A program made the translations under genes and the position numbers. A stretch of 64,000 bases of DNA from Limisalsivibrio acetivorans (GTDB lineage Bacteria; Chrysiogenota; Deferribacteres; Deferribacterales; Geovibrionaceae). Below the pieces are notes generated by a model, which was not told where the DNA came from, searched no databases, and saw only the letters and a program-made list of their open reading frames with translations. The stretch covers positions 1,623,407 through 1,687,406 of the forward strand of contig NZ_ATWF01000001.1 in assembly GCF_000421105.1 (NCBI RefSeq). Reading direction: 5' to 3'. Of the stretch, positions 11,891 to 35,223 are shown piece after piece (position 1 is the first letter of the stretch; every line of letters begins with the position of its first letter).

Positions 11891-14746
11891 GTGTCAACAG
11901 GCTATCATGCAAAATATATTGCTCACAAGCTAACTTCACAAAACTCAAGTGATGATTTTTCAAAGCTTTCAATGTCACTTTTTGATGCCACTGTTGACCT
12001 TAACCCACACCAGATAGAAGCTTCGCTCTTTGCTCTTAATAATCCTTTGTCAAAGGGAGTAATCTTAGCTGATGAGGTTGGCTTAGGTAAAACTATTGAG
12101 GCAGGACTTGTTTTATGTCAGTTCTGGAGCGAAAGAAAGCGAGATATTATTGTAATCTGCCCAGCCTCATTAAGAAAACAGTGGGCAAACGAGTTATATG
12201 AGAAATTCAGTATACCAAGCATAATTATCGACTCTAAGAAATATAAAGAGTTAAAAAAAGAGGGTTCAGAAAACCCATTTAAACAAAAACATGTCATAAT
12301 CACTTCTTTTCATTTTGCAGCTAGATTGAGAGATGAGCTAAAACTTGTATCATGGGACCTGGCAGTAATAGATGAAGCACACAAGCTAAGAAATGCACAC
12401 CAGCAAAGCAATTTTATGGGACAATCATTAAGATGGGCACTTGAAGATGTTTATAAGATTCTTTTGACAGCCACCCCGCTGCAAAACTCACTCATGGAAC
12501 TATACGGCCTTTCCACTCTAATAGATGACAACCTTTTTGGAGAACCTGCATCGTTCCGTTCTATGTACATGAACTATGGGGCTGATATTGAAGATCTGAG
12601 GAACAGGCTAAGCCAATTTTGCAAAAGAACATTGAGGCGTCAGGTTTTAGAATATATAAAATATACAGAAAGAAGAGCACTTACCCAACCTTTCAACCCC
12701 ACAACCGAAGAGCATAAATTATATGACGCAATATCTGAATTTCTATTACGTGAAGATACATACGCAATACCTACAAACCAGCGACACCTGGTTGTCCTTA
12801 TACTTAGAAAATTGCTGGCCTCATCATCTGCAGCAATAGCATCAACTCTGGAAACCATAAAAAACAGGCTTATCAGCATAAAAGAAGGTGTGAAGGATAA
12901 CCGGGATCTGGTGGACAGGATAATTGATGAAGAGGAGATTGAAGATGATTTTCTGGAAGAAGACATAGAGGTTACAGAAACCTCTGACAATGAGAACAAA
13001 ATTGATTTAAAAAAGCTAGAAGCAGAAATACTTGAGCTCGACCAATATATAAGATGGGCAAAGAGCATAGGTATAGATTCAAAAACCAGGGCTTTGATGA
13101 GTGCCTTAAAGGTTGGTTTTGCAGAGATGCAAAAAATGGGGGCAGCAAAAAAGGCAGTCATTTTTACCGAGTCCCGAAAAACTCAGGACTATCTGGCTAA
13201 TTTCCTCGAAAGCAATGGATATTACGGCAAAGTTGTCTTATTTAACGGCAGTAATAACTCTGAAAATACAAAACAGATTTACAATGACTGGCTGACAAAA
13301 AATTTAGATAGCGGGAAATCAACAAGTTCGAAAGCTATAGACATTCGAGCAGCTTTAATTGATTATTTCGAAGACGAAGGTGAAATTTTTATAGCAACAG
13401 AAGCAGCGGCAGAAGGCGTAAACCTGCAGTTTTGCTCGCTGGTTATCAACTATGACTTACCATGGAACCCCCAGAGAGTAGAGCAAAGAATCGGAAGATG
13501 TCACCGTTACGGCCAAAAGCATGATGTTGTTGTTATCAATTTTATTAACAAAAGAAATGCCGCTGATATGAGGATATATGAACTTCTGGAGCAAAAGTTT
13601 AATCTTTTTAACGGAGTTTTCGGAGCTTCTGATGAAGTGCTCGGCTCTATAGAATCAGGAGTCGATTTTGAAAAACGGGTTTTAAAAATATATCAGGAAT
13701 GCCGCACAGAAAAAGAAATTGAAAAAGCTTTCAATCAGCTGCAGCAGGAAATGGATGAGCAGATAAAGTCCCGTATGACTGATGTGAAAGAACAGCTGTT
13801 CGAACATTTTGACGAAGATGTTCATTCACGTCTCAAATTCAGACTGGAAGACACAAAAAGACAGCTGAGAAGGTTTGAGAAAGATTTCTGGACTTTAACA
13901 AGATTTATTCTATCAGATAAGGCCAAGTTCAATGATACTGAGTGCAGCTTCAGCCTTAAAGATTCACCCGCCCCTCATATTAAAACCGGAAACTACCATA
14001 TGGTATCAAAAGACCATGTAAATATTCATGGAGACTATCTCTATCGTCTATCACACCCGTTGGGAGAATACGTTCTGGATTGCGGAAAGCAGTATCCTGT
14101 GGAAACAGCTTCCGTTGAGTTTGACATATCTAATCATCCGAACAAAATAAGTATTGTGGAAGGCTTAAAAGGAAAAAGCGGCTGTATGATGCTGGAAAAG
14201 CTCGTAATCTCTGGACTTTCGTCAGAAGAATATCTTTTGTTCTCTGCCATTGATGACAGCGGCAAAAGCATAGATCAGGAAGTTTGTGAAAAACTTTTTT
14301 ACTGCAGTGGCAAAGTGGCAAGCACACAAAACATTGATACTGAGCAGGCAGAAAGACTTAAAAAAGAGTCGGATGTTCATTCAAAAGCGACTATTTATGC
14401 ATCTGCAGAGAGAGATAATGAGTTTTTTAAACACGAACAGGAAAAACTGACAAAATGGGCAGAAGATATGATCACATCTCTTGAGAGTGAGCTTGCCGCA
14501 GCAAAATCTCAGGAAAAAGCGATACGAAGAGAATTGGACCTTGCAACAACAGTGGAAGAGCAGGTTGAACTGCAAAAAAAGCTTAAAGCGAAAGAAAGAG
14601 AAAAGAAAAGACTTCGTCAGGAGATATTTGACAGAGAAGACGAGATAGAAAACAAAAGAGACATACTTATAGAAGCCTTAAAGAAGAAGCTTTCACAAAA
14701 GACTACACAGGAGACGCTGTTTATTATACGATGGAGCGTTGTCTAA
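11891..14746 (+). CDS. SNF2/RapA-type helicase of a modification-restriction operon
   Basis: A 951-residue superfamily 2 ATPase. Walker A is in ADEVGLGKTIEAG near residue 60, Walker B is IDEAHKLRN near 160, motif III is LLTATPLQN near 190, and motif VI is QRIGRCHRYGQ near 528. This set matches the SNF2/RapA group of double-strand DNA translocases. The C-terminal roughly 80 residues (860-935) form a strongly charged coiled coil. Start: GTG at 11891 with GGAGG 9 bp upstream. It is the first gene of an operon; the methyltransferase gene starts 15 bp after its stop. In DISARM class 1 an SNF2 helicase (DrmD) also accompanies a methylase, but DrmA, DrmB and DrmC are absent here. Likely role: DNA translocation in anti-phage restriction (inference). 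Confidence 0.88.
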   Translation: MSTGYHAKYIAHKLTSQNSSDDFSKLSMSLFDATVDLNPHQIEASLFALNNPLSKGVILADEVGLGKTIEAGLVLCQFWSERKRDIIVICPASLRKQWANELYEKFSIPSIIIDSKKYKELKKEGSENPFKQKHVIITSFHFAARLRDELKLVSWDLAVIDEAHKLRNAHQQSNFMGQSLRWALEDVYKILLTATPLQNSLMELYGLSTLIDDNLFGEPASFRSMYMNYGADIEDLRNRLSQFCKRTLRRQVLEYIKYTERRALTQPFNPTTEEHKLYDAISEFLLREDTYAIPTNQRHLVVLILRKLLASSSAAIASTLETIKNRLISIKEGVKDNRDLVDRIIDEEEIEDDFLEEDIEVTETSDNENKIDLKKLEAEILELDQYIRWAKSIGIDSKTRALMSALKVGFAEMQKMGAAKKAVIFTESRKTQDYLANFLESNGYYGKVVLFNGSNNSENTKQIYNDWLTKNLDSGKSTSSKAIDIRAALIDYFEDEGEIFIATEAAAEGVNLQFCSLVINYDLPWNPQRVEQRIGRCHRYGQKHDVVVINFINKRNAADMRIYELLEQKFNLFNGVFGASDEVLGSIESGVDFEKRVLKIYQECRTEKEIEKAFNQLQQEMDEQIKSRMTDVKEQLFEHFDEDVHSRLKFRLEDTKRQLRRFEKDFWTLTRFILSDKAKFNDTECSFSLKDSPAPHIKTGNYHMVSKDHVNIHGDYLYRLSHPLGEYVLDCGKQYPVETASVEFDISNHPNKISIVEGLKGKSGCMMLEKLVISGLSSEEYLLFSAIDDSGKSIDQEVCEKLFYCSGKVASTQNIDTEQAERLKKESDVHSKATIYASAERDNEFFKHEQEKLTKWAEDMITSLESELAAAKSQEKAIRRELDLATTVEEQVELQKKLKAKEREKKRLRQEIFDREDEIENKRDILIEALKKKLSQKTTQETLFIIRWSVV

Positions 14747-14761
14747 TTTCGAGGGTTAAAA

Positions 14762-17533
14762 ATGTCAGAAAACAAATATTACGAAAAGCTTAAAAAGAAT
14801 CTAAAAGAGATGTTCCAGATGGACAGAAACGATCTGGACTTCGGCATATACAGAATAATGAACCAGAAGTCTGCAGAGATAGAAGACTTTCTGGAGAACA
14901 AACTTTTAACACAGGTTAAAGAAGATCTGGAGAAAACAAAATCTAAAACAGGTAAAGAAGAGCTTGAAAAAGCGATAAAAGACGCCGAGAGCTTAGGGAT
15001 AGACCCTAACACTAACGAAAAAATTATCGCTTTGAAAGAAAAGTATGACTCTTTAGCAGACATAAATAAGGTTCAAAGCGAAATTTTTAGTCATCTTAAT
15101 AACTTCTTTGCCTGTTATTACTCAGAAGGCGATTTTATGTCACACCGCCGTTACAAGCCGGGAAAATACGCCATCCCATACGAAGGCGAAGAGGTAAAGC
15201 TTCATTGGGCAAACAGTGATCAGTACTATATTAAGTCATCCGAGGATTTAAAAGACTATACGTTTATTGCAAGCGGCAAGAGAGTTCATTTCAAGCTGAT
15301 AAACGCATCTACAGAAAAAGATAATGTAAAAGAAGCTTCCGATAAAAAGAGAATGTTTGTTCTTTGCGAGGATGAGCCTTTTATATTTGAAAATGATGAA
15401 CTTTTTATAAGATTTGAATACAAAGCACCGGAATCCGAAAAAAAACAGGAAAACCTAAATAAGGATGCTGTTTCTGTTTTATTAAATTCAGCAGATTTGG
15501 GTGAATGGCGAAACATCTTATCTGAACCAAGACCAACTGACAAAAACAAAGAAAGAACACTTCTCGAGAAACATCTTAATGACTACACTGCCAAACATAA
15601 GTTTGACTACTTTATACACAAAGACCTAGGCGGTTTTCTGCGTCGAGAGCTGGATTTTTATATCAAAAACGAAATAATGCATCTGGATGATATCGAAAAC
15701 GAATCTGCTGCTAAGGTCGAGGAATATCTTGATAAGATAAAAGTGATAAGAAAGATAGCAGGAAAAATAATCGACTTTCTTGAGCAGCTTGAAAATTTTC
15801 AGAAAAAAATCTGGTTGAAAAAGAAGTTTGTTGTCGAAACAAACTGGTGCATCACACTGGACAGGATTCCGGAAAGTTTTTACGAGGAGATTGCCGAGAA
15901 TGATAAACAAATTGAAGAATGGGTTGACCTTTTTTCAATAGATAAAATTGAATTAAGCACAGAGTCACCCGCTTTTGAAAAACCATTGCCTGTTGAATTT
16001 TTAAAAGCGAACGAGTTCCTTGTTCTGGACACAAAGTTTTTCAGCGAAGATTTCAAAAACAGGCTACTCGAAACTTTTGATGATATAGATGAGCAGACAG
16101 ACGGATTACTGATACATTCAGAGAATTTTCAGGCACTGCAGCTTTTGCAGGAAAGATACAAAGAGCAAGTAAAATGTATATATATTGACCCACCGTATAA
16201 TACCGGTGGAGATGGTTTTTTATATAAGGATAGCTATAAACACTCCAGCTGGTATTCCATGATAAAAGATCGCTTAAAAATATCAGGACACCTGATGTCA
16301 AATACTGCCTCAATATATACACAAATAGATTACTATGAAACACACAGGCTTAGAGAAATTCTAGACACTCTATTTTTTTTCCAAAGGGAAATAATTTGGG
16401 ATATTCAGGTTCTTTCAGGTTTTAAAACAATTGCGCCAAACTGGGTTCGAGGGCATGAAACAATTTATTTTCATACTAAAACTGAAGATTATTTTTTCAA
16501 AAAGCTTAAACAACCTCACACAAAAGAATATGAAGCAATGTTTAACAAGCTTGATACAGATGGTAGAAAATTCATGATAGCCCACGGATTAAAGAGATAT
16601 TGGGACGAAGTTAAAGATAGAGGGAAACCGTTCGGTGATGTATGGAATGACATAATGTCTTTTCAACAGCAGCCAACAGCTTCCGAAAGAATCGGATTTT
16701 CAACTCAAAAACCAGAAAAGCTTCTTGAAAGAATAATTTTATCATCTACTAAAAAAGGTGAGATTGTTATCGACTTTTTTGCTGGGAGTGGAACAACTTC
16801 AGTGACCGCTTGTAAGCTTAGTAGATATTTTATAAATATTGAAGTTGGTAGTTACTTTTACAGCTTCATGCTACCAAGGATGAAAAAGACATTAAATGGC
16901 TTCACTACTTCTTCTTCGAAAGTATATAACTATAAAGGTGGCGGGATCTTCAAATACATACGTTTGGAATCATATGAAGATGCTTTAGATAACCTTACGC
17001 CAGTGAGAACTGAAGAACAAAACAATGCTTTCGAGCAGATGAGTGACACTGCAAAAGAAGAATATATACTGAAATATATGCTTGATGTTGAGACAAAAGA
17101 TAACGAATCGATGCTTAACGTTAAAACATTCACAAAACCTTTTGATTATAAAATAAATATCAGAGTTGATGATGAACTTGTGCCTACTAAAGTTAATCTG
17201 GTTGAAACGTTTAATTATCTGATAGGCCTCAAGGTTGAAAACTTCAGAAGTAATTACAGTGGGTATGAAGGTCTAAAGACTGTTGAAGGTAGAAACCTTA
17301 AGGATGAAAAGATAATTATTATCTGGCGTGACATTGAACTTATTGATAATAACAAGCTTGATGAGTGGTTTAAAAAACAGCAGTTTTCAGCAAAAGAACA
17401 GGAATATGATTATTTCTATGTAAACGGCGACAACAATATTGAGAATTGGCGCAAAGACAATGAGACATGGAAAGTACGTCTGATTGATCATGAATTTCCT
17501 AAGCTTATGTTTGATGTAAAAGATGTGATGTAG
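14762..17533 (+). CDS. Type III-like (beta-class) DNA adenine methyltransferase, long form
   Basis: A 923-residue DNA amino-methyltransferase. The catalytic motif DPPYNTG is near residue 475 and the SAM-binding motif FAGSGTT near 673. This order (motif IV before motif I) marks the beta class, to which type III Mod subunits belong; DPPY favours N6-adenine. The roughly 200 residues between the motifs would be the target-recognition region. About 450 residues precede the catalytic core, so it is about 280 residues longer than EcoP-type Mod; this extension is rich in coiled-coil-like charged helices. Spacing to neighbours is 15 bp upstream and 8 bp downstream. It probably marks self DNA for the neighbouring helicase-nuclease. 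Confidence 0.9.
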   Translation: MSENKYYEKLKKNLKEMFQMDRNDLDFGIYRIMNQKSAEIEDFLENKLLTQVKEDLEKTKSKTGKEELEKAIKDAESLGIDPNTNEKIIALKEKYDSLADINKVQSEIFSHLNNFFACYYSEGDFMSHRRYKPGKYAIPYEGEEVKLHWANSDQYYIKSSEDLKDYTFIASGKRVHFKLINASTEKDNVKEASDKKRMFVLCEDEPFIFENDELFIRFEYKAPESEKKQENLNKDAVSVLLNSADLGEWRNILSEPRPTDKNKERTLLEKHLNDYTAKHKFDYFIHKDLGGFLRRELDFYIKNEIMHLDDIENESAAKVEEYLDKIKVIRKIAGKIIDFLEQLENFQKKIWLKKKFVVETNWCITLDRIPESFYEEIAENDKQIEEWVDLFSIDKIELSTESPAFEKPLPVEFLKANEFLVLDTKFFSEDFKNRLLETFDDIDEQTDGLLIHSENFQALQLLQERYKEQVKCIYIDPPYNTGGDGFLYKDSYKHSSWYSMIKDRLKISGHLMSNTASIYTQIDYYETHRLREILDTLFFFQREIIWDIQVLSGFKTIAPNWVRGHETIYFHTKTEDYFFKKLKQPHTKEYEAMFNKLDTDGRKFMIAHGLKRYWDEVKDRGKPFGDVWNDIMSFQQQPTASERIGFSTQKPEKLLERIILSSTKKGEIVIDFFAGSGTTSVTACKLSRYFINIEVGSYFYSFMLPRMKKTLNGFTTSSSKVYNYKGGGIFKYIRLESYEDALDNLTPVRTEEQNNAFEQMSDTAKEEYILKYMLDVETKDNESMLNVKTFTKPFDYKINIRVDDELVPTKVNLVETFNYLIGLKVENFRSNYSGYEGLKTVEGRNLKDEKIIIIWRDIELIDNNKLDEWFKKQQFSAKEQEYDYFYVNGDNNIENWRKDNETWKVRLIDHEFPKLMFDVKDVM

Positions 17534-17541
17534 GTTCTGTT

Positions 17542-20500
17542 ATGGCTAAAAGAAAAAAGAAAGAAGAACTGAAATTTTATCACAAGCTTGTTCTTAACCA
17601 ATATATTTGTTCTCTGTTTGAGACAGAAAAGAACGATGATGGTATTTATTCTTTTAAAATATTAGGTAAAGATTTTAAAGATGAAGGTATGGAAGGATGG
17701 GACAATGACGGTATTTCATATTTTTATCACAACCTTACATCCAGAACCAACGAAAGAGACAAATTGCCTGATGACAAGCTTAAAGAGTATGATAACAATA
17801 TATTCAGACATACTAAAAAGCTAAGCGATGCCAGAGGAGAGCAGGTTAAATGGAAATATTTTCAATATTTTACACTTCTCTTCGTAGAAATATATCTGGA
17901 TAGGTATTTTTCTGATAGAGAAAGTCTGCTTAAAGACCTTAATGACTTCCTTTATGATTTTAATATAGAATTCACTTCCAAAGGTTTGTTATCTCAACCT
18001 TTACCACTATACACTGAAGATGATCTGCATGTGCTTTCTGTATGGAATGCCACAGGGTCTGGCAAAACACTTTTGATGCATCTGAATATCTTTCAGCTTA
18101 AACATTACATAGAGAAAAGCGGTATAAGTAAACAGTATAACAAAACCATACTTCTTACACCTAATCCGGGACTATCTAAACAGCACCTTGAGGAGCTGGA
18201 AATATCCGGCATTGATGGTGATTTCTTCAATATTGATGGAACAGCTCAATACAATACAGATAATGTAGAGATTATCGATATTTATAAATTAAAAGATAGT
18301 TCAGGTAAAAATACAGTTGCAGTGAGTGCATTCAACAGTAACAACATTGTTTTTGTTGATGAAGGCCACAGAGGAGCATCCGGAACAGTTTGGAAAGATA
18401 TGAGAGATCAACTGAGCGAAGAAGGTTTTGCGTTTGAATATTCTGCAACTTTCGGACAAGCAGTAGGCAGCAATGCTAAGCTTTCAAAAGAGTATGCAAA
18501 GAATATTCTTTTCGACTACTCTTATAAATATTTTTATAACGACGGCTTCGGAAAAGATTATTCAATACTCAATCTCCCTGAAACAGAAAACAATGAGAAC
18601 TACCATAAATATATGACTGCAGGGCTGATTTCTTTCTATCAGCAGCTTAAATATTATGAGGATAATAAAGATAAGCTTGCAGTTTTTAATATTGAAAAAC
18701 CTCTTTGGGTTTTTATCGGAAGAACTGTTAAGTCGCTGACTAAAGACTTGAGCTCTGACGTTGAAAAAATTGTACTGTTTATTGATGAATTTATTAAAGA
18801 TGCCAAAAAGACAAAGGAGTATATATCACTCATTCTTGATGGCAAACTCGGCTTGCTGGATAAATTGGGTAGAGATATTTTTTCTAATAAGTTTACATAC
18901 CTAATGAATCTGAAAATGTCTGCAGATGATATTTTTAATGATCTTAATAAGGTTTTGTTTAATTCAAGCTCCGGTGCTCAATTGCATGTTGATTACCTGA
19001 AAGGGAGCGAAGGTGAGCTTGCTTTGCGAGTGGGAGACAATGAACCTTTTGGAGTTATTAACGTTGGCGAATCAAAAAAGCTTGCTGACCTTTTAAGTAA
19101 AAATGTTGATGTTTTTGAGAAGGATTTTTCAGACTCGCTGTTTGAAGGGATAAATGATAGAGGCTCAACAATAAATCTGCTGATCGGTTCTAAAAAATTC
19201 AGCGAAGGGTGGAACAGTTGGCGAGTATCAACTATGGGGCTGCTAAATGTCGGCAAAAGCGAAGGCAGCGAGATAATACAGCTATTTGGTCGTGGAGTAA
19301 GGCTTAAGGGGCATGAGATGAGCCTAAAACGCTCAAAAGAGCTTGTTGGCATCGATAGACCTGATTTCATAAATATTGCCGAAACATTAAATATTTTCGG
19401 TGTAAAAGCAGATTATATGGAAACATTCAAAAAGTATCTAGAAGAAGAAGGTCTTCCTGTAAAAGATAATGTTTTTGAGATAGATATACCTGTCAGAAAT
19501 ACACTCGGAGATAAAAAGCTCAGAATACCAAAAATACCAAGCGGCTTACATTTCAAAACCAATGCACCAAAACCTACATTAAGGCTCGATCCAACATTGT
19601 TTTATGGAAGACCTGTAGAGGTGAACATGTATGCCCAGCTTCAGTCCATTCACTCAAAAGGTGCAGCATATATCGGAGACGGAATAAGGCATAATGAAGA
19701 AAGTTTTAAAGAAATGCACCTCGCTTTTATGGACTTTGAGCAAATATATAATGAACTGCAGATGTTTAAAAATGAAAGAGCTTGGTTCAACCTTAATATG
19801 CCCCGAGAAGCTGTCAGAGAGATATTAAACTTAGACAAATGGTACATTATAAAGATACCAAAGGATCAGATGAAGTTTTCCAGCTTTGAACAAGTTAAGC
19901 TTTGGGAAGAAATTGCTGTTAAACTTTTGAAAAAATATATTGAAAGGTTCTATAATCGCTATAAGTCAGGATGGGAAAACGAGCATAGAAGAATAGAAGT
20001 TCTTGATGGGAATGATAGCAACTTTATTGTTGAATATTCAGTTCTTATGGATTCAAGCATGACTTCGTTGAAAGCAAAGCTGGATGATATTGTCAGCTCT
20101 ATAGATAATAATAAGTTTGATGATATCGTATTCAGCGATAAAATACATGCATTTATGTTTGACTGGCATCTATACCAGCCGCTTATGTATTTAAAAGATA
20201 ATAATGTAAAAATAGTTCCTCAAAGCCTTGTTGAAAGTGAGAAAACTTTTGTAAGCGACTTAAAAGAATATTGTGAAAACGCTGAAGATAAAAGAGAGAT
20301 ATATCTTCTCAGAAACCTGACTAAGAGCAAAGGAATTGGATTCAATATTGATACCGGCACTTTTTTTCCTGATTTTATTTTATGGATTGTCGATGGAGAA
20401 ACCCAGCATATAAAATTCATTGATCCTAAAGGATTAAGAAACTTGTCGGGGATTAATGACCCTAAAATAAGGTTTTGCAAAGATATTAAGCTTCTGGAGA

Positions 20501-20664
20501 ACAAACTGGGAGATAAATCAACAACATTAGATTCTTATATAGTCGTTCCAACAAAAGAATATGATTTACCTGAATGGGCGCAGAACGAAAAAGAACTAGA
20601 GGAAAATAATATACTTAAACAAAATACAACCGGGTATGTTGAGAAGATATTATCGAAAATATAG
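17542..20664 (+). CDS. Type III-like restriction helicase-nuclease (Res-like)
   Basis: A 1040-residue protein. Walker A lies in NATGSGKTLLMH near residue 170 and Walker B reads VDEGHRGASG near 273 (DEGH instead of DEAH). A late helicase motif appears as IIQLFGRGVRLKG. The C-terminus holds a PD-(D/E)xK-type nuclease: FFPDF near 942 and IDPKG near 961 supply the expected Asp and Asp-x-Lys. Length and architecture match type III Res subunits, which translocate on DNA and cut unmodified sites. It starts 8 bp after the methyltransferase gene, so Mod and Res should be made together. Confidence 0.88.
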   Translation: MAKRKKKEELKFYHKLVLNQYICSLFETEKNDDGIYSFKILGKDFKDEGMEGWDNDGISYFYHNLTSRTNERDKLPDDKLKEYDNNIFRHTKKLSDARGEQVKWKYFQYFTLLFVEIYLDRYFSDRESLLKDLNDFLYDFNIEFTSKGLLSQPLPLYTEDDLHVLSVWNATGSGKTLLMHLNIFQLKHYIEKSGISKQYNKTILLTPNPGLSKQHLEELEISGIDGDFFNIDGTAQYNTDNVEIIDIYKLKDSSGKNTVAVSAFNSNNIVFVDEGHRGASGTVWKDMRDQLSEEGFAFEYSATFGQAVGSNAKLSKEYAKNILFDYSYKYFYNDGFGKDYSILNLPETENNENYHKYMTAGLISFYQQLKYYEDNKDKLAVFNIEKPLWVFIGRTVKSLTKDLSSDVEKIVLFIDEFIKDAKKTKEYISLILDGKLGLLDKLGRDIFSNKFTYLMNLKMSADDIFNDLNKVLFNSSSGAQLHVDYLKGSEGELALRVGDNEPFGVINVGESKKLADLLSKNVDVFEKDFSDSLFEGINDRGSTINLLIGSKKFSEGWNSWRVSTMGLLNVGKSEGSEIIQLFGRGVRLKGHEMSLKRSKELVGIDRPDFINIAETLNIFGVKADYMETFKKYLEEEGLPVKDNVFEIDIPVRNTLGDKKLRIPKIPSGLHFKTNAPKPTLRLDPTLFYGRPVEVNMYAQLQSIHSKGAAYIGDGIRHNEESFKEMHLAFMDFEQIYNELQMFKNERAWFNLNMPREAVREILNLDKWYIIKIPKDQMKFSSFEQVKLWEEIAVKLLKKYIERFYNRYKSGWENEHRRIEVLDGNDSNFIVEYSVLMDSSMTSLKAKLDDIVSSIDNNKFDDIVFSDKIHAFMFDWHLYQPLMYLKDNNVKIVPQSLVESEKTFVSDLKEYCENAEDKREIYLLRNLTKSKGIGFNIDTGTFFPDFILWIVDGETQHIKFIDPKGLRNLSGINDPKIRFCKDIKLLENKLGDKSTTLDSYIVVPTKEYDLPEWAQNEKELEENNILKQNTTGYVEKILSKI

Positions 20665-26897: not shown

Positions 26898-27554
26898 ACC
26901 GGTATCTCCTTTAATCTTCTATTACTTTTATTTATACAACAACAAGCAACATTTCTGAATACTGATATTGTATTAGTCATTCATATGTACATTTGAGTTT
27001 CAAAAGATACCACAGGCAGATATGTACTTCGAAAACACTAAGACTGGTGGAAATTTTTATTGTTAATGAGATGCCTTTTCAGCATTTATATATGTTTTTC
27101 CTTCATAATGAAATTCCTTATAGATGCACGGCAACCGAAGAGCATGCATATTAAAATAGGGGCCCCTGCAGTTTGTAAAAAGTCTGGCTTGATAATAGAC
27201 AACTCATAATACAGGAGTATTAACACAGCTGATAAGCTTAAGCGGGTTCCACATATTATACAGGCTGAGCCTAGCCTGCTTGGGAGGGATTCACAAGATT
27301 TATGGCAGAATAGTTTTCTGAAACGCCTATCAGGTAATGCATTGCACCGACATCAGCCCTGGATCTAATACTCAAAACTGGCTCTTCGCCAGATGGTTGT
27401 TCACTGAAAGGCCGCATGATTCTCTTGAAAAAGCACATCCAGAGAGTATATATGTGATATAAGTATCTTTAATTTTACATTTAACAAAATAGAGAACCAG
27501 CTACACTTGACATTTAATAAGTTAATAAACTACTTGCAGTATCAAGAGGCAACT
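26898..27554. other. Long intergenic region with a possible gene relic
   Basis: No intact gene. It holds the leader of the PKD lipoprotein on one side and the promoter region of the binding-protein gene on the other. A frame from about 27346 to 27462 (NWLFARWLFTERPHDSLEK within it) has protein-like composition but no start, and may be a relic. AGGGGCCCCT near 27160 is a perfect short palindrome. Confidence 0.35.
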
Positions 27555-28397
27555 ATGAAAAATATAGCAGTGCTTTTCCTGCTCATACTCAGCACATTCG
27601 GAGTTAACGCAGAAACAACTCTAAAATACGGCATCTCCTCTATGCTCTCCGCCTCCAGCACCTTCATCCACTATGAAGAGCTGAACAATTATATTGCACA
27701 AAAAATGGATACTGAATCACATATTATCCATAAGGAAAACTACAGCGAAATGAACCAGCTGATTAAAAACAGCCAGGTGGATTTTGCAAGTATCTGTACA
27801 GGGGCGATGCTTTATCTCGATGAATCGGAATATAGGCTTGTTGCTGTGCCGGTTATCAACGGTGTAAAAACCTATAACTCTGTCGTTATAGCAAACAGTG
27901 AATCGGGTATCGATTCTCTTAGTGATATGCAGGAGAAGGTTTTTGTCATGACGGACAGACTTTCCAACACGGGGTACCTGTACCCCTCTTATCTGTTCAA
28001 CAGAAAGTTCGGAGATATTAACTCATTTTTCAAAAAGGTATACTTCACAGGCACCCACGATAAATCGGTATACCTTGTGAATAAAGGAGTCGTTGATGCA
28101 GGGGCAGTGGACGAGCTGGTGTTTGAAAGTATTAAAGCCAATAACCCTGAGAATGTCTCGAATCTGGAGGTGATCCACCGCTCGCCGGACTTTGGAATGC
28201 CACCTATAGTCGCATCCAACAAGATGGACAATATAAAAACCGAACAGCTTAAAGCGGTTTTGCTCAATATGCACAAAGACCCGGAAGGGAGCAGTATCTT
28301 ATCCGAGCTCATGATAGACAGGTTTGTACCCGCAGAAGAGAGTGATTACGATATTGTCCATGAGATAAAAAAGTATGTTGAAAATCATAAGAAATAG
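27555..28397 (+). CDS. Periplasmic PhnD/TorT-like binding protein of the arsenate-sensing system
   Basis: A 280-residue exported solute-binding protein. The signal peptide is NIAVLFLLILSTFGVNA. The fold resembles PhnD-type phosphonate/phosphate binding proteins: VDFASICTGAMLYLDESEY and, later, DRLSNTGYLYPSYLFN are family-like. The ATG at 27555 has AGAGG upstream; an earlier in-frame ATG at 27507 lacks one. It overlaps the sensor-kinase gene and no ABC permease follows, so it probably presents ligand to the kinase, as AioX does for AioS in arsenite sensing. Arsenate is the likely ligand, by inference from the adjacent arr operon. Confidence 0.8.
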   Translation: MKNIAVLFLLILSTFGVNAETTLKYGISSMLSASSTFIHYEELNNYIAQKMDTESHIIHKENYSEMNQLIKNSQVDFASICTGAMLYLDESEYRLVAVPVINGVKTYNSVVIANSESGIDSLSDMQEKVFVMTDRLSNTGYLYPSYLFNRKFGDINSFFKKVYFTGTHDKSVYLVNKGVVDAGAVDELVFESIKANNPENVSNLEVIHRSPDFGMPPIVASNKMDNIKTEQLKAVLLNMHKDPEGSSILSELMIDRFVPAEESDYDIVHEIKKYVENHKK

Positions 28398-29742
28398 CAT
28401 ACCTGATTCTTTTAAAAACAGGTTTTTGCTTCTCTTTACCGCCTTTGTTATCGTTGCAGGCCTTAGCAATATCTCAGCTCAATATCTCTTTGATAAGTTT
28501 GAATACAGCAAGCTCTCAAACGAGACAATACGGAATATTCACTTCAGCTCAATGAACAGTTTGCGAGACTCCATCCTATACGACGACATATACACATTGT
28601 TTACGATAACTGAAAGTATCGCACATAACGTATCTCTGGTCCAAAATGTATTCATACTAAACAGTAAGAAGCGTTATATTACTGATGCAATGGTCACAAA
28701 GGATATTCCAGCAATCCAGAACGACAGTAGTAGCTATAAAACAATGGACATAACGCTGGATAACGGAAAGACCATCGGCTATGCAGTTTATCATGTTGAT
28801 CTTGATTATATTCAACACCAGATCCTGAGCCATAATATTGTAACTACAGGTGTAATAATGCTGATTATTGTCGTATTTCTTGTGGCGGCAATTGTCCTTA
28901 TTTTCTTTTTCACCAAACCTATAAATATAATATCTGCCTCACTAATCGAATCCGAAAGCAGCAGTGTCCCGATTTACTTCAATATCCCAGAGCACACCTC
29001 ATCGGAGATTAAAACCCTCGCCAACATCATTACGGCCCTTTCTGTGGAGCTTGATAAAAAAATGAAGCAGAACATTGAGTCGGAGAAAAAAATCGCTCAG
29101 GACGAAAAACTGGCTGCCATAGGCTCACTATCTGCAGGGCTGGCACACGAACTTCGCAACCCTGCAATGTCACTCAAGATTATGACCCACAGCTTTCGAA
29201 CGGGAGAGTCCATAACAGATGATGACCTTGTCGTCATCGAAAGGGAAGTGGACAGAATATCTATGACTGTGAATGAGTTCCTGCGGATAGCAAAGACTGT
29301 GGATGTGGATATTACTGAAACAAACACCAAACGAATTAAACGTATGCTCATCGAGCACTTCCACAGGGTTCTTAATGAGATTAGTATACTCTACTATGGC
29401 AATGACTTTGAATTCAAAACAGACGAACTTAAGCTTTTCAGCGTATTAGAGAATTTGATATATAACTCGAAAGAGGCTGATGCAACTTCTGTTAAGATAC
29501 ATTTTGAGCAAGCACCTAACAGCACAATAATATCTTACATTGACAACGGTGTCGGCATCCAAAAAAATATTGCCGATAAGGTTTTTCTGCCATTCTTCAC
29601 AACTAAAAAAAGCGGTACAGGCTTAGGCATGAGTATGTGTGAAAAAATCCTCTTCGCATTAAACGGTACTATATCAATAGATACAAGCTACACAGAAGGA
29701 GCAAAATTCACTATAATACTTAAAGGTGCAAATAATGCGTAA
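28375..29742 (+). CDS. Membrane sensor histidine kinase (arsenate-responsive, ArrS-like)
   Basis: A 455-residue kinase. Two membrane helices (about 14-36 and 158-182) enclose a periplasmic domain of about 120 residues. A linker leads to the H-box GLAHELRNPAMS, with phospho-His near 259, then an ATPase domain with ENLIYNSKEADA, DNGVGI and TKKSGTGLGMSM. The gene overlaps the binding-protein gene by 23 bp and the next regulator gene by 8 bp, so the three are translated as a unit. It probably senses the loaded periplasmic binding protein and phosphorylates the sigma-54 activator. Confidence 0.88.
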   Translation: MLKIIRNSIPDSFKNRFLLLFTAFVIVAGLSNISAQYLFDKFEYSKLSNETIRNIHFSSMNSLRDSILYDDIYTLFTITESIAHNVSLVQNVFILNSKKRYITDAMVTKDIPAIQNDSSSYKTMDITLDNGKTIGYAVYHVDLDYIQHQILSHNIVTTGVIMLIIVVFLVAAIVLIFFFTKPINIISASLIESESSSVPIYFNIPEHTSSEIKTLANIITALSVELDKKMKQNIESEKKIAQDEKLAAIGSLSAGLAHELRNPAMSLKIMTHSFRTGESITDDDLVVIEREVDRISMTVNEFLRIAKTVDVDITETNTKRIKRMLIEHFHRVLNEISILYYGNDFEFKTDELKLFSVLENLIYNSKEADATSVKIHFEQAPNSTIISYIDNGVGIQKNIADKVFLPFFTTKKSGTGLGMSMCEKILFALNGTISIDTSYTEGAKFTIILKGANNA

Positions 29743-31105
29743 CATCCTTGTAATAGACGATGACACTTCTCTTACATACAGCCTGAAAAAGGCATTTAAC
29801 AGGGACTACAGCCTTTCCATCGCAAATAACGCCTCAGAAGCATTTACAATACTTAGAAATAACAGTCATATAGGTCTTATTTTCCTGGACTTTAAACTTG
29901 GCGAAGAAAACGGTATTGATGTCCTGGAGAGACTGAATAAGGACTATCCCGCCATACCGGTTATTTTCATGACTGCATACGGCAACAGCAACACGGTAGT
30001 TGAGGCCGTTAAAACCGGAGCTGTGGAATATCTGGTAAAACCCATTGAGCCTGAAGTTTTTATTGAAAGCATTAACGATTACTATCTTGAAAACGGAACT
30101 TCATGTGGTGATGATTTTATCAGGGTTCCTGAGTATGACAGAAGCATCGAGATTGCGGGCACATCCAAACCGATGAGGGATGTATTGAAGCTTACCGCCT
30201 CGGCCTCTCAGTCCGATGCCCCTGTTTTGATAACAGGAGAGAGCGGAACCGGGAAGGATCTGATAGCCGGAATGCTTCACAGACACAGCAAAAGAGCCCC
30301 GGAACCTTTTATACCGGTAAACTGTGCGGCTATACCCTCTGAACTTCTGGAAAGTGAGCTCTTCGGCTACACCAAGGGTGCGTTCAGCGGTGCATCATCT
30401 CATAAAGTAGGGCTTTTCGAATCAGCAAACCGCGGAACAATCTTTCTGGACGAGATAAGCGAGCTCCCCTATGAGCTGCAAGCGAAACTGCTTAGAGTTC
30501 TACAGAATGGCTCGATTCAGAAGATTGGCGAATCTATGGCATGCTCCGTTGATGTAAGGATCATCGCAGCTTCTAACAGGAACCTTACCCAGCTTGTGGA
30601 CTCAGGCGATTTCAGAGAAGACCTTTTCTATCGGCTGAGCGTTATCGGGATAGACATACCCCCTCTAAGGGCTAGGAAAAATGATATACCAGAGATCGTA
30701 CTGTACCTGCTAGGGAAATATAACCAGAAAAACAGCAGAAAGATACGCTGTATTAGCAAAGAACTGATTGAGATACTCAAGAATCAGGAATGGCGCGGCA
30801 ATGTGCGTGAGCTGGAGAACAGGATAAGGGAGGCTGTTGCACTGGCAAACAGTGAGAAGCTCTGCCTGGATAACATAAGTTTCGGTGCCATAAGCTCAGA
30901 ACCCCATGGACAACTCCGCCTTTATGATTATTTCACAAATAAATACAAAAACGATATATACAATAGCTCACTCGCAGAATGCGAGAAGGTACTTGTGCAA
31001 GGCGCTCTGAGCAGGTTTAACGGAAAACTCAGTGAAGCTGCGGAATGGTTGAATATCTCAAGGGTCACCCTGAATGCAAAGATTAAGAAATACGACCTGA
31101 TGTAA
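29735..31105 (+). CDS. Sigma-54-dependent response regulator (ArrR-like)
   Basis: A 456-residue NtrC-type activator. The receiver domain has the acidic residues IDDD and phospho-Asp52 in IFLDFKLGEENG. The AAA+ domain has Walker A GESGTGKD, Walker B IFLDEI, and a sigma-54 contact loop reading GAFSGA instead of GAFTGA (Thr to Ser). A Fis-type helix-turn-helix ends the protein (LSEAAEWLNISRVTLNAKI). The ATG at 29735 has AGGTG 8 bp upstream. A perfect sigma-54 promoter follows 95 bp after the stop, directly before arrA, so its target is almost certainly the arr operon. Confidence 0.9.
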   Translation: MRNILVIDDDTSLTYSLKKAFNRDYSLSIANNASEAFTILRNNSHIGLIFLDFKLGEENGIDVLERLNKDYPAIPVIFMTAYGNSNTVVEAVKTGAVEYLVKPIEPEVFIESINDYYLENGTSCGDDFIRVPEYDRSIEIAGTSKPMRDVLKLTASASQSDAPVLITGESGTGKDLIAGMLHRHSKRAPEPFIPVNCAAIPSELLESELFGYTKGAFSGASSHKVGLFESANRGTIFLDEISELPYELQAKLLRVLQNGSIQKIGESMACSVDVRIIAASNRNLTQLVDSGDFREDLFYRLSVIGIDIPPLRARKNDIPEIVLYLLGKYNQKNSRKIRCISKELIEILKNQEWRGNVRELENRIREAVALANSEKLCLDNISFGAISSEPHGQLRLYDYFTNKYKNDIYNSSLAECEKVLVQGALSRFNGKLSEAAEWLNISRVTLNAKIKKYDLM

Positions 31106-31200: not shown

Positions 31201-31216
31201 TGGCACCTCCATTGCA
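31201..31216 (+). promoter_or_regulatory. Sigma-54 (-24/-12) promoter of arrA
   Basis: TGGCAC (31201-31206), five bases, then TTGCA (31212-31216): an exact match to the sigma-54 consensus, 35 bp before the arrA start. The upstream 95 bp would hold the activator site. Confidence 0.88.
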
Positions 31217-31250: not shown

Positions 31251-33785
31251 ATGAAAATCAAAAGAAGAGATTTTCTTAAAGCGACAGCAGTTATAGGTAC
31301 TGCAGCCGCTTTTGGCTGTGTACCAAAAAATAATGCTTTAGAACCTGCTTCAGCCATGCCTCAGAAGATGGGCGAAGCCGAAGGTGAGTGGATATCAACA
31401 ACATGCCAGGGGTGTACCACTTGGGACCCTATACAGGTTTTTGTGCAGGACGGCAGAGCTGTAAAGGTTCGAGGAAACCCCAACAGCAAAGCAAACGAAG
31501 GCACTTGCTGCCCCAGAGCGCATATGGGACTGCAGCAGCTTTATGACCCCGATAGAGTAAAAGTGCCCATGAAAAGGACAAACCCCGAAAAAGGAAGGGG
31601 TGTGGATCCCAAGTTTGTGCCCATAAGCTGGGACGAAGCTCTGGACACCATCGCAGATAAAATGATCGAGCTGAGAAAGAACGGCGAAGCTCATAAATAT
31701 ATGCTCAACAGGGGACGCTACACCTACGCTAGAGATATCATCTATGATGCAATGACAAAGATCTACGGCTCTCCTAACAATATTTCTCACAGCGCCATCT
31801 GTGCAGAAGCAGAAAAGTCCGGTGCATTCTTCACCCACGGATACTGGGACTATCGAGACTATGACCTTGATAATACGAAATATCTGCTGATATGGGGGCT
31901 GGATCCGCTTGTTTCGAACAGGCAGGTTCCCTACTCAATAAAAGTATTCGGCGAGGTTATGGACAAGGCGACAATCACCGTTGTGGATCCAAAACTGAAC
32001 GCATCCGCTGCAAAGGCCCACAACTGGCTCCCCGTACTACCCGGAACAGACGGAGCCCTTGCTGTGGCCATAGCCCATGTGCTTCTAACAGAAGAGCTGT
32101 GGTACAAGCCCTTTGTCGGCGATTTCAAAGACAGTGTAAACCATTTCAAAGCTGGCGAAACTGTTGATGAGTCATTATTTGAGGAGAAGTATACGAGCGG
32201 TATTGCTAAATGGTGGAATCTGGAGCTTAAGGATAAAACACCCGAATGGGCAGAGAAAGAAACCAAAATCCCGGCAGAGCAGATCTATAAAACAGCCAGA
32301 GAGATGGCAGTAGCAGCCCCTTCTGTCTGTGTGTGGATGGGTCCGGGTGCGGCAATGCACGTGCGCGGTACTTACTCGGCAATGGCGATTGAGGCACTCT
32401 GCGGACTTCTCGGCTCAATAGACAATCAGGGGGGAACCCTTATGAAGGGGAAAACCCATGTCAACAAGATGCCCAGCCTGGATGCATATAAAGACAGTAT
32501 CGCCAAAAAGAAATACCAGAAAATAGACCAGCGAGGTTACCTTGACTTCCCTGCTCTTAAAAAAGGAAAATCCGGCGGCGGAGTTGTAACCAACAATGTT
32601 GCCACTGCCATGCTTGAAAAGGACCCTTACGATATCAAGATGGGTATCGGATACATGAACAACTTCACATTTTCCGGAACCGGAGCACAAAGATGGGAAG
32701 AGGCCCTCAGCAAGCTCGATTTCTATGTGCACATAACAACCCACGCCTCCGAAATGACTCAGTTTTCAGATATAGTTCTCCCTTCAGCGATTACAACATT
32801 TGAAAAGTGGGCATTCCTCAAGAGCAAAGGGAACAGGCACTCACAGGTTTCTCTCCTTCAGCCTGTTGTAGATCCCATGTGGGATGTTCGTACCGATGAA
32901 ACAGAGATACCTTTCCTTATAGCCGAGAAGCTTGCAGAGAAGGGATTCGACAATATGCTCAGGTACTTCAAAGACAGCTTCAAGGATCCCGAAACCGGTG
33001 CGACCCCGCAGAATGCCAAGGAGTTTGCTTTATACGTTGTAAAGTATTACACAGCACCCACATGGGACGGCAAAGAGAGCTTCCCCGGAGATAAGATTAA
33101 CGGTTGGGAGGACTTTAAAGCTGTTGGAGTCTGGAATGATGCACCCTATCCCTTCAAAAAAAGCTGGGGCAAGTTTAAGACAAAGACAAAGAAGTTTGAG
33201 TTCTACAGCGAAACCCTCAAGGAAGCTCTTTCAAAGCATGCAAAGAAGCATCACACAGATGTAGATAACGTCCTTGAAGAATGCAATTACGAAGCACGTG
33301 GAGAGCATGCTTTCATACCTCACTATGAGAAACCTTTCCGTTACGGCTCAACAGAGGAGTACCCCCTAACCTTCATCGACCACAGATCACGCCTGAATAA
33401 GGAAGGACGCAGTGCAAACTGTACATGGTATCAGGAATTCAAGAAAGTGGACCTCGGTGACGAAAGCTGGGACGATGTGTTGAAGATTAATCCTGAGGAT
33501 GCGTCCAAGTACGGCATATCCAACGGAGACATGGTTAGAATAACATCTGTCAACGCAAGCTTTGTTATCAAGGCAAAGCTTTGGGAAGGCGTACGCCCCG
33601 GCACAATCACCAAATGCTACGGCCAAGGTCACTGGGCTTATGGAAGAATTGCTGCAGAAGATTACCATAACGCTAAACCTAAAGGCTTTAACAATAACGA
33701 ACTGATGCCTGCAGACTATGACCGCCTCTCTGGTAGTACAGCAAGAAACGGCGGTTTCTGCGGCGTAAAAATTGAAAAAGCATAA
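31251..33785 (+). CDS. arrA: Respiratory arsenate reductase, catalytic molybdopterin subunit ArrA
   Basis: An 844-residue DMSO-reductase-family enzyme reducing arsenate to arsenite in the periplasm. The N-terminus is a Tat signal (KIKRRDFLKATA) ending near Cys23. It parallels Shewanella ANA-3 ArrA throughout, as I remember that sequence: RGRY (Arg of the arsenate site), SHSAICAEAEKSG with the Mo-coordinating Cys and active-site Lys, the Tyr in GYWDYRDYD, and C-terminal KLWEGVRPGTITKCYGQGHW. RGRY marks ArrA rather than ArxA. The [4Fe-4S] motif is unusual: Cys52, Cys55, then Asp59 (GAC at 31425-31427) where the third cysteine is expected, and Cys87 with an extra Cys86. An AGGAGG ribosome-binding site precedes the ATG. 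The arrB gene follows after 11 bp. Confidence 0.93.
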   Translation: MKIKRRDFLKATAVIGTAAAFGCVPKNNALEPASAMPQKMGEAEGEWISTTCQGCTTWDPIQVFVQDGRAVKVRGNPNSKANEGTCCPRAHMGLQQLYDPDRVKVPMKRTNPEKGRGVDPKFVPISWDEALDTIADKMIELRKNGEAHKYMLNRGRYTYARDIIYDAMTKIYGSPNNISHSAICAEAEKSGAFFTHGYWDYRDYDLDNTKYLLIWGLDPLVSNRQVPYSIKVFGEVMDKATITVVDPKLNASAAKAHNWLPVLPGTDGALAVAIAHVLLTEELWYKPFVGDFKDSVNHFKAGETVDESLFEEKYTSGIAKWWNLELKDKTPEWAEKETKIPAEQIYKTAREMAVAAPSVCVWMGPGAAMHVRGTYSAMAIEALCGLLGSIDNQGGTLMKGKTHVNKMPSLDAYKDSIAKKKYQKIDQRGYLDFPALKKGKSGGGVVTNNVATAMLEKDPYDIKMGIGYMNNFTFSGTGAQRWEEALSKLDFYVHITTHASEMTQFSDIVLPSAITTFEKWAFLKSKGNRHSQVSLLQPVVDPMWDVRTDETEIPFLIAEKLAEKGFDNMLRYFKDSFKDPETGATPQNAKEFALYVVKYYTAPTWDGKESFPGDKINGWEDFKAVGVWNDAPYPFKKSWGKFKTKTKKFEFYSETLKEALSKHAKKHHTDVDNVLEECNYEARGEHAFIPHYEKPFRYGSTEEYPLTFIDHRSRLNKEGRSANCTWYQEFKKVDLGDESWDDVLKINPEDASKYGISNGDMVRITSVNASFVIKAKLWEGVRPGTITKCYGQGHWAYGRIAAEDYHNAKPKGFNNNELMPADYDRLSGSTARNGGFCGVKIEKA

Positions 33786-33796
33786 GGAGTTGAATT

Positions 33797-34555
33797 ATGT
33801 CCAAAATGGGAATGGTAATAGATCTGCATAAATGTGTAGGATGCGGAGCATGCGGAATCGCATGTAAAACAGAAAACAATACACAGGACAGAAAAAACGG
33901 TCAATCTTATAACTGGGCGGACTTTATCTTCAAGATGGAAGGCAAGTTCCCCGATTTAAACTTTACAGCCTATCCTGTCCTTTGCAATCATTGCTCAAAT
34001 GCTGCATGCGTTGATGCATGCCCTGTAACACCCAAGGCAATGTTTAAAACAAAAGACGGAATAACCATGCATAATGATGAGAGATGTATCGGGTGCCGGC
34101 AGTGCCAGATGGCCTGTCCATACAGTGCGGAAGATCTCGAGGGAAGCGATGCGGAATACAGCGTAATCAGCTTCAATTTCGATGATGAACCCACACATCC
34201 GGCATACAGAAGCAGCTCTGTACTCCTCGACGGCATGACATCCTCCGGCGCAGAGGTCTCAAAGGGAGCTGGCGCTGTACCCCCTTTCAAGACAAAATAC
34301 GCACATCCGGACTACGACGATGTCAGAAGGAAGGGGATTGTTGAAAAGTGCATACTTTGCGAACACAGGATCAAGAACTGTGAGGATCCATACTGTGTTG
34401 ATGCCTGCCCTTCACATGCAAGAGTTGTAGGGGACCTTGATGACCCTAACAGCAAGGCATCCAGGTTGCTGAACACCTACAGCTACGAAAGACTGCAGGT
34501 TGAAGCGGGCACTGAGCCTAATGTTTACTATATAAGGTCCTACAAAGTTAAGTAG
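33797..34555 (+). CDS. arrB: Respiratory arsenate reductase iron-sulfur subunit ArrB
   Basis: A 252-residue ferredoxin-like subunit that passes electrons from the quinol side to ArrA. Four cysteine groups are visible: CVGCGACGIAC near 13-23, CNHCSNAACVDAC, CIGCRQCQMAC and CILCEHRIKNC with CVDACPSHARVVGD, enough for four [4Fe-4S] clusters as in the DmsB/PsrB family. There is no signal peptide, so it would be exported with ArrA by Tat. AAGGAG lies before the ATG, 11 bp after arrA. No ArrC/NrfD membrane anchor follows; as in Shewanella, a quinol dehydrogenase encoded elsewhere may serve. Confidence 0.93.
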   Translation: MSKMGMVIDLHKCVGCGACGIACKTENNTQDRKNGQSYNWADFIFKMEGKFPDLNFTAYPVLCNHCSNAACVDACPVTPKAMFKTKDGITMHNDERCIGCRQCQMACPYSAEDLEGSDAEYSVISFNFDDEPTHPAYRSSSVLLDGMTSSGAEVSKGAGAVPPFKTKYAHPDYDDVRRKGIVEKCILCEHRIKNCEDPYCVDACPSHARVVGDLDDPNSKASRLLNTYSYERLQVEAGTEPNVYYIRSYKVK

Positions 34556-34614: not shown

Positions 34615-35223
34615 ATGACTATAGACAACTCTGGATTGAAATCAGAACTGTGCAGAGCCTTTGCTCTTATGTTTTACAACCCTGAGGATACCTTTCTCAA
34701 TGAGCCGGAGATACTCGGCTATTTTGCAGAACTGCTTGAGAGCCTGGGAGAGGAATACCGCCCCTATGCGGAAAGAGTGAAGAATGCCCTTAAGAAAAAT
34801 AAAGAAACAGAGATAATGATTGATTATGCCGCTCTGTTTGTCGGACCATATAAGCTGAATGCCCCGCCTTACGGCTCAGTATACATTGATAAGAAAAGAA
34901 AACTGAATTCCGATTCAACTAAAGAAGTTGAGGAATTATACAAAGAGTATGGCCTTACAGTGTCCAAAGATATTAGCGACACAAGCGACCATATTGCTGT
35001 TGAATTGGAATTTCTCCATACATTGCTGGCAGATTACCATAACAACCCGTCCCAAAAAACCATGGATATCCTCAACAGATTCATGGAAAGCTTCTTTCTA
35101 CCTTTTGTAAAAGGTTTATCGCCATTGATCATCTCAAATGCTTCCACAGATATTTATAAATGCGTGGGAGAGAGCCTGGGGATGTTTACCCAAAATGAGC
35201 TGACAACATTATGCTGCAGCTAA
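34615..35223 (+). CDS. arrD: TorD/DmsD-like chaperone for ArrA (ArrD)
   Basis: A 202-residue all-helical protein of the TorD redox-enzyme chaperone family. Such chaperones bind the Tat signal of a molybdoenzyme and delay export until the cofactor is inserted. Family-like segments are YAALFVGPYKLNAPPYGSVY near residues 65-85 and DHIAVELEFLHTLLADY near 124-140. It follows arrB by about 60 bp after a hairpin, and a terminator ends the operon behind it. Its client is therefore most likely ArrA. Confidence 0.88.
   Translation: MTIDNSGLKSELCRAFALMFYNPEDTFLNEPEILGYFAELLESLGEEYRPYAERVKNALKKNKETEIMIDYAALFVGPYKLNAPPYGSVYIDKKRKLNSDSTKEVEELYKEYGLTVSKDISDTSDHIAVELEFLHTLLADYHNNPSQKTMDILNRFMESFFLPFVKGLSPLIISNASTDIYKCVGESLGMFTQNELTTLCCS

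Follow-up and report, generated by a model that had tools for sequence, protein, structure and literature searches.

The window analysed here is a stretch of 64,000 nucleotides from the genome of Limisalsivibrio acetivorans, and it holds an arsenate-respiration locus in which every gene lies on the + strand: an X-S-R module is followed by arrA, arrB and the gene of a TorD-type chaperone. The features of this locus, with positions counted from the start of the window, are listed below; L020 and L022 are two further Deferribacterales loci.

27507-28397, + strand: ArrX-like periplasmic binding protein (phosphate/phosphonate-binding family); TIGR01098 above its cut-off; also beside arrAB in L020 and L022
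28375-29742, + strand: ArrS-like sensor histidine kinase
29726-31105, + strand: ArrR-like sigma-54-dependent response regulator
31201-31216, + strand: sigma-54-type promoter TGGCACCTCCATTGCA, 50 bases 5' of the arrA start
31251-33785, + strand: arrA, catalytic molybdopterin subunit of respiratory arsenate reductase, 844 aa, with Tat signal; supported by NF041714, 6cz7 and an AlphaFold model
31404-31511, + strand: FS0 cluster motif C52-x2-C55-x3-D59-x27-C87; Pfam PF04879 (Molybdop_Fe4S4), 39.8 bits
31425-31427, + strand: codon 59, GAC, with Asp replacing the third cluster cysteine; Asp in 9/9 ArrA of the clade and 0/155 elsewhere
31506-31511, + strand: codons 86-87, TGC TGC; C87 is the fourth cluster ligand and C86 an extra cysteine
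33797-34555, + strand: arrB, iron-sulfur subunit, with 16/16 cluster cysteines kept by cysteine census; NF041715, 248.9 bits; 6cz7_B, E 1.7e-60
34615-35223, + strand: TorD/DmsD-type chaperone (arrD-like); Nitrate_red_del homologues occupy the same place in L020 and L022

The overall sequence and fold revealed that the window enzyme is an ArrA. NCBIfam NF041714 was by far its best family, with a score of 1161 bits, which lies below the curated cut-off of 1600 bits; this cut-off does not discriminate here, because the ArrA of a named organism, Mesobacillus selenatarsenatis SF-1, scored 1119, and relatives with Cys59 (1050-1165), like every other relative tested, fell short of it too. The match to the ArrA of Shewanella sp. 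ANA-3 (6cz7) had an E-value of 5e-303. The AlphaFold model, built from 75 sequences, showed a mean pLDDT of 91.6, with values of 86-95 in the blocks around the cluster motif, and its superposition on 6cz7 gave a Z-score of 60 and an rmsd of 1.1 Å over 804 residues; the runner-up structure was a polysulfide reductase with a Z-score of 38. Across 75 aligned ArrA, R156, H180, C184 and Y201 were invariant, and Y157 and K189 were conserved in at least 90%. By analogy with the ANA-3 structure, we take C184 to be the Mo ligand and the conserved Arg, His, Lys and Tyr residues to have substrate-site roles. Two further marks of ArrA membership were present, namely the Tat signal RRDFLK at the N-terminus and, in the neighbouring gene, an ArrB that carries four cluster motifs of the ferredoxin type. 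Homology and context suggest that the enzyme reduces arsenate, and Seleniivibrio woodruffii, a named species of the Deferribacterales group, is described as arsenate-respiring in a title cited in PMC13186404.

The FS0 cluster links ArrB to the pterin-molybdenum site in electron transfer, and in a large enzyme superfamily it is the final relay ahead of molybdenum. The published cluster motif of ArrA is C-x2-C-x3-C-x27-C (PMC2500031). In the window ArrA, codons 52 (TGC), 55 (TGT), 59 (GAC), 86 (TGC) and 87 (TGC) confirmed exactly the reading of the initial annotation, in which Asp59 stands at the third position and Cys86 adjoins Cys87. The window protein and eight clade relatives depart from the published motif at the third cysteine, which is Asp, while the other cysteines and the spacing are kept; if the motif is taken strictly, the window protein would count as a variant ArrA and not as a textbook member. 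A phmmer alignment with 6cz7 paired 'TTCQGCTTWDPIQ' with 'TTCQGCTSWCAKQ' without gaps, placing D59 opposite Cys and C86 opposite Ser, in agreement with the statement in that annotation that the Shewanella enzyme has Cys at the Asp position. The Cys paired with D59 is a ligand in 6cz7, so that Asp stands at a ligand position of FS0.

Position 59 was surveyed in two samples. Among 50 genomes of the phylum, ArrA was present in 12, nine of them Deferribacterales and three belonging to a distinct class-level group of the same GTDB phylum, which we take to be Chrysiogenetes. The wider sample, which added relatives found on genome contigs and in a search of about 1,900 genomes, comprised 164 distinct ArrA that covered the motif; the plasmid collection that was searched gave zero matches. 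All nine Deferribacterales ArrA contained Asp59, and all 155 others, including those of the presumed Chrysiogenetes, contained Cys59. Beyond the window genome, Asp59 occurred in eight further genomes from four other genera and three families. Two of the nine loci were identical to loci of named Denitrovibrio MAGs, and a third was identical to that of a Deferribacteraceae MAG. The unusual Asp that had been noticed in one ArrA is thus real but not peculiar to that protein, being fixed in 9/9 Deferribacterales ArrA. Of the two outcomes that had been named as fatal to it, Asp being common across ArrA is contradicted by its absence from the 155 sequences outside the clade, and a sequencing correction by the recurrence of Asp in nine genomes. 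A sequencing or assembly error in the window genome would have to account for the same residue in eight other genomes, encoded by two synonymous codons; the census refutes this explanation, to which we assign practically no weight. We also rejected Asp as a genome-wide habit, since the third cysteine was kept in six other molybdoenzymes of the window genome.

Comparison of the clade with the other ArrA over positions 40-844 revealed that site 59 alone has a residue common to all nine proteins and absent from the others; only sites 147 and 346 came near to being clade-specific, and no compensating residue was found elsewhere in ArrA over these positions. Within the clade, C52, C55 and W58 were invariant and P60 and Q62 uniform, which indicates that the cluster loop is held; C87 was also invariant. 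As a separate observation at the N-terminus, the Tat signal ended in a lipobox-like [VLF]-G-C, with the cysteine at Cys23 (31317-31319) in the window ArrA, in 9/9 D59 proteins, and something similar was present in 17 of 145 other ArrA; judging from this signal, the D59 ArrA may be a membrane-anchored lipoprotein.

In trees of 66, 75 and 76 rows, the nine D59 ArrA formed one clade with SH-aLRT support of 99-100. When the states of single sites were counted on the tree by parsimony, one change sufficed at position 59, and the result was the same with columns 59 and 86 removed and with a paralogue outgroup. The single clade and the single change on the paralogue-rooted tree therefore identify Cys as ancestral and Asp as derived. 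Across the C59 enzymes, whose portion of the tree has a total length of about 21 substitutions per column, site 59 was constant. Vertical descent shared with the presumed Chrysiogenetes ArrA was unsupported, as those proteins sit in another part of the tree. A change from a Cys codon to GAC or GAT requires two base substitutions, as had been pointed out for GAC, and four clade members now use GAC, the other five GAT. Three pairs allowed dS to be calculated, and their dN/dS for arrA came to about 0.035, 0.054 and 0.077; purifying selection on the gene is strong. Because codon 59 varies synonymously while dN/dS is low, Asp59 is maintained and not drifting. Pseudogene formation or decay was rejected on the basis of the eight further genomes, the two codons and the low dN/dS; the earlier judgement that decay was unlikely in so well conserved a protein agrees with this and with the retained active-site residues.

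The surroundings of arrA were consistent with a working enzyme. All nine arrA genes of the clade were preceded, at -50 to -68, by a predicted sigma-54 promoter, TGGCA-N6-TTGC, compared with 7/135 other ArrA loci. The X-S-R module lies upstream of arrAB in the window (27507-31105) and in L020 (2285-5854) and downstream in L022 (10201-13742). ArrX of Chrysiogenes is an arsenate binder (PMC5908839). Since it combines a sigma-54 promoter with an arsenate-sensor-like X-S-R module, the locus of the D59 enzyme looks regulated and functional. In ArrB, we found no compensating change: there were zero diagnostic residues, and 16/16 cluster ligands were kept. These observations bear on the idea that FS0 has become dispensable or lost under relaxed constraint, the enzyme working without it or on another reaction. 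The N-terminal cluster is indeed missing from some members of the superfamily (PMC10100899). However, C52, C55, W58 and C87 are invariant in the clade, ArrB retains all of its ligands, the active site is intact, dN/dS values are low, and both promoter and operon have been conserved. We regard loss of FS0 as very unlikely.

Three side observations concern the locus and its relatives. An arrXSR-like module adjoins arrAB in Deferribacterales (window, L020 and L022), contrary to a 2018 statement that arrXSR is absent from Deferribacteres (PMC5908839). In a group of Bacillota ArrB (L036, L077 and L149-L153), Asp (ADPYG) replaces the last cysteine of ferredoxin motif three, at the position matching Cys107 of the window protein; this is another Cys-to-Asp change in the complex, separate from the one in ArrA. 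Elsewhere in the window (11891-20664), genes for an SNF2-type helicase, an N6/N4 DNA methylase and a ResIII-type protein adjoin one another and look like a restriction-modification or defence island.

The replacement of Cys59 removes one thiolate from the cluster, which would leave three outcomes: ligation by the carboxylate, a three-iron cluster, or recruitment of another thiolate. The last of these had been suggested for Cys86, which would replace the lost ligand next to Cys87, so that the cluster would still have four cysteines and Asp59 would be a bystander. All nine D59 enzymes carry Cys86, which did not change anywhere in the clade, and enzymes with five cysteines (C59 and C86) are tolerated, accounting for 25 of the 155 others. 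Among C59 enzymes, however, C86 and V, I, L, S, G or A have interchanged at least six times, a pattern that fits a small hydrophobic site better than a ligand. Its constancy in the clade is also unexceptional: zero changes were observed against 2.1 expected (P about 0.12), and 43 of 230 sites with a similar rate were equally invariant. Moreover, it is uncommon for a single cluster to lie within reach of two adjacent residues. Takeover of the ligand role by Cys86 is therefore a weak possibility without specific support, and we consider it improbable.

Ligation by Asp59 itself is the reading that we prefer, because Asp can bind iron, is retained throughout the clade, and is a ligand of such a cluster in nitrite oxidoreductase (NXR), the closest precedent, although there at the second ligand position. 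Cys59 changed to Asp once, in the ancestor shared by the Deferribacterales ArrA, and the Asp has persisted ever since; in the proposed arrangement, the Asp59 carboxylate would bind the fourth iron and give a site-differentiated [4Fe-4S] cluster with three Cys ligands and one Asp. The path of electrons would be unchanged, running from ArrB through FS0 and the pterin to Mo, while the potential and stability of FS0 would differ from those of the all-cysteine form. We infer this ligation and consider it probable. Carboxylate-ligated [4Fe-4S] clusters are found elsewhere, as with Asp8 of NsrR (PMC5411485) and in Nfn (PMC9503767). The effect of such ligands on the potential is not agreed upon (PMC9503767), and as the literature gives no rule, we do not predict the direction of the shift.

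The main rival of Asp ligation is that FS0 is a [3Fe-4S] cluster or interconverts between three-iron and four-iron forms, the fourth iron being absent or labile, Asp59 non-ligating or only weakly ligating, and the potential raised as in the arsenite oxidase AioA. This arsenic-acting relative has a high-potential [3Fe-4S] cluster at the same site, with a potential of +270 mV (PMC5574378). Ferredoxins with Asp at a cysteine position are described, in work cited in PMC5411485, as readily shedding the carboxylate-bound iron, and this easy loss therefore favours a [3Fe-4S] or interconverting FS0. However, Asp, a residue capable of binding iron, has been kept in 9/9 clade members despite synonymous codon changes, mere loss of the thiolate should have led to drift towards Ser, Ala, Gly or Asn, and a comparable loss occurred in zero other ArrA. 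We consider a three-iron cluster unlikely, though less so than the other alternatives to ligation by Asp59.

Comparison with known systems places the D59 enzyme among several related but not identical arrangements. It resembles ANA-3 ArrA in fold, in sequence (54% identity), in the Mo-Cys and active site, and in the adjacent ArrB with four four-cysteine motifs; in contrast, the third FS0 ligand of ANA-3 ArrA is Cys and the residue preceding its fourth ligand is Ser, while Asp and Cys occupy these positions in the window ArrA. NxrA of Kuenenia (7b04) belongs to the same superfamily and also contains FS0, for which a crystal structure shows three Cys and Asp71 as ligands (PMC8387239). However, Asp is the second ligand in NxrA (C67, D71, C75 and C115), the Mo ligand is Asp, and the protein belongs to a different branch of the superfamily. 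NarG and ethylbenzene dehydrogenase likewise bind FS0 through three Cys and one non-cysteine ligand (PMC8840923), although that ligand is a His at the first position. AioA is also an arsenic molybdoenzyme with an altered N-terminal cluster (PMC5574378), whereas its cluster is [3Fe-4S], its Mo has no protein ligand, and its partner is a Rieske protein in place of ArrB.

Non-cysteine ligands of FS0 are thus already known, as is an Asp ligand in NXR. To our knowledge, a third-position Asp ligand on FS0 is undescribed elsewhere in the DMSO reductase superfamily, and among the searchable papers, which leave out most subscription journals, we found no report of Asp at the third FS0 position or of any ligand change in ArrA. 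On sequence evidence, Asp59 is a real, inherited variant of the ArrA of one order. We propose more tentatively, at somewhat less than an even chance, that the whole order uses an ArrA with FS0 bound by three Cys and a third-position Asp, that this was selected to tune the entry of electrons to molybdenum, and that the arrangement is new to the superfamily. ArrA searches that demand the four-cysteine motif will miss or discard D59 enzymes. The clade provides a natural swap at a single ligand position, with the mature protein separated without exception from other ArrA at site 59 only; this clean difference therefore makes a direct comparison with Cys59 enzymes possible, and it bears on the question of how FS0 ligands affect potential and catalysis.
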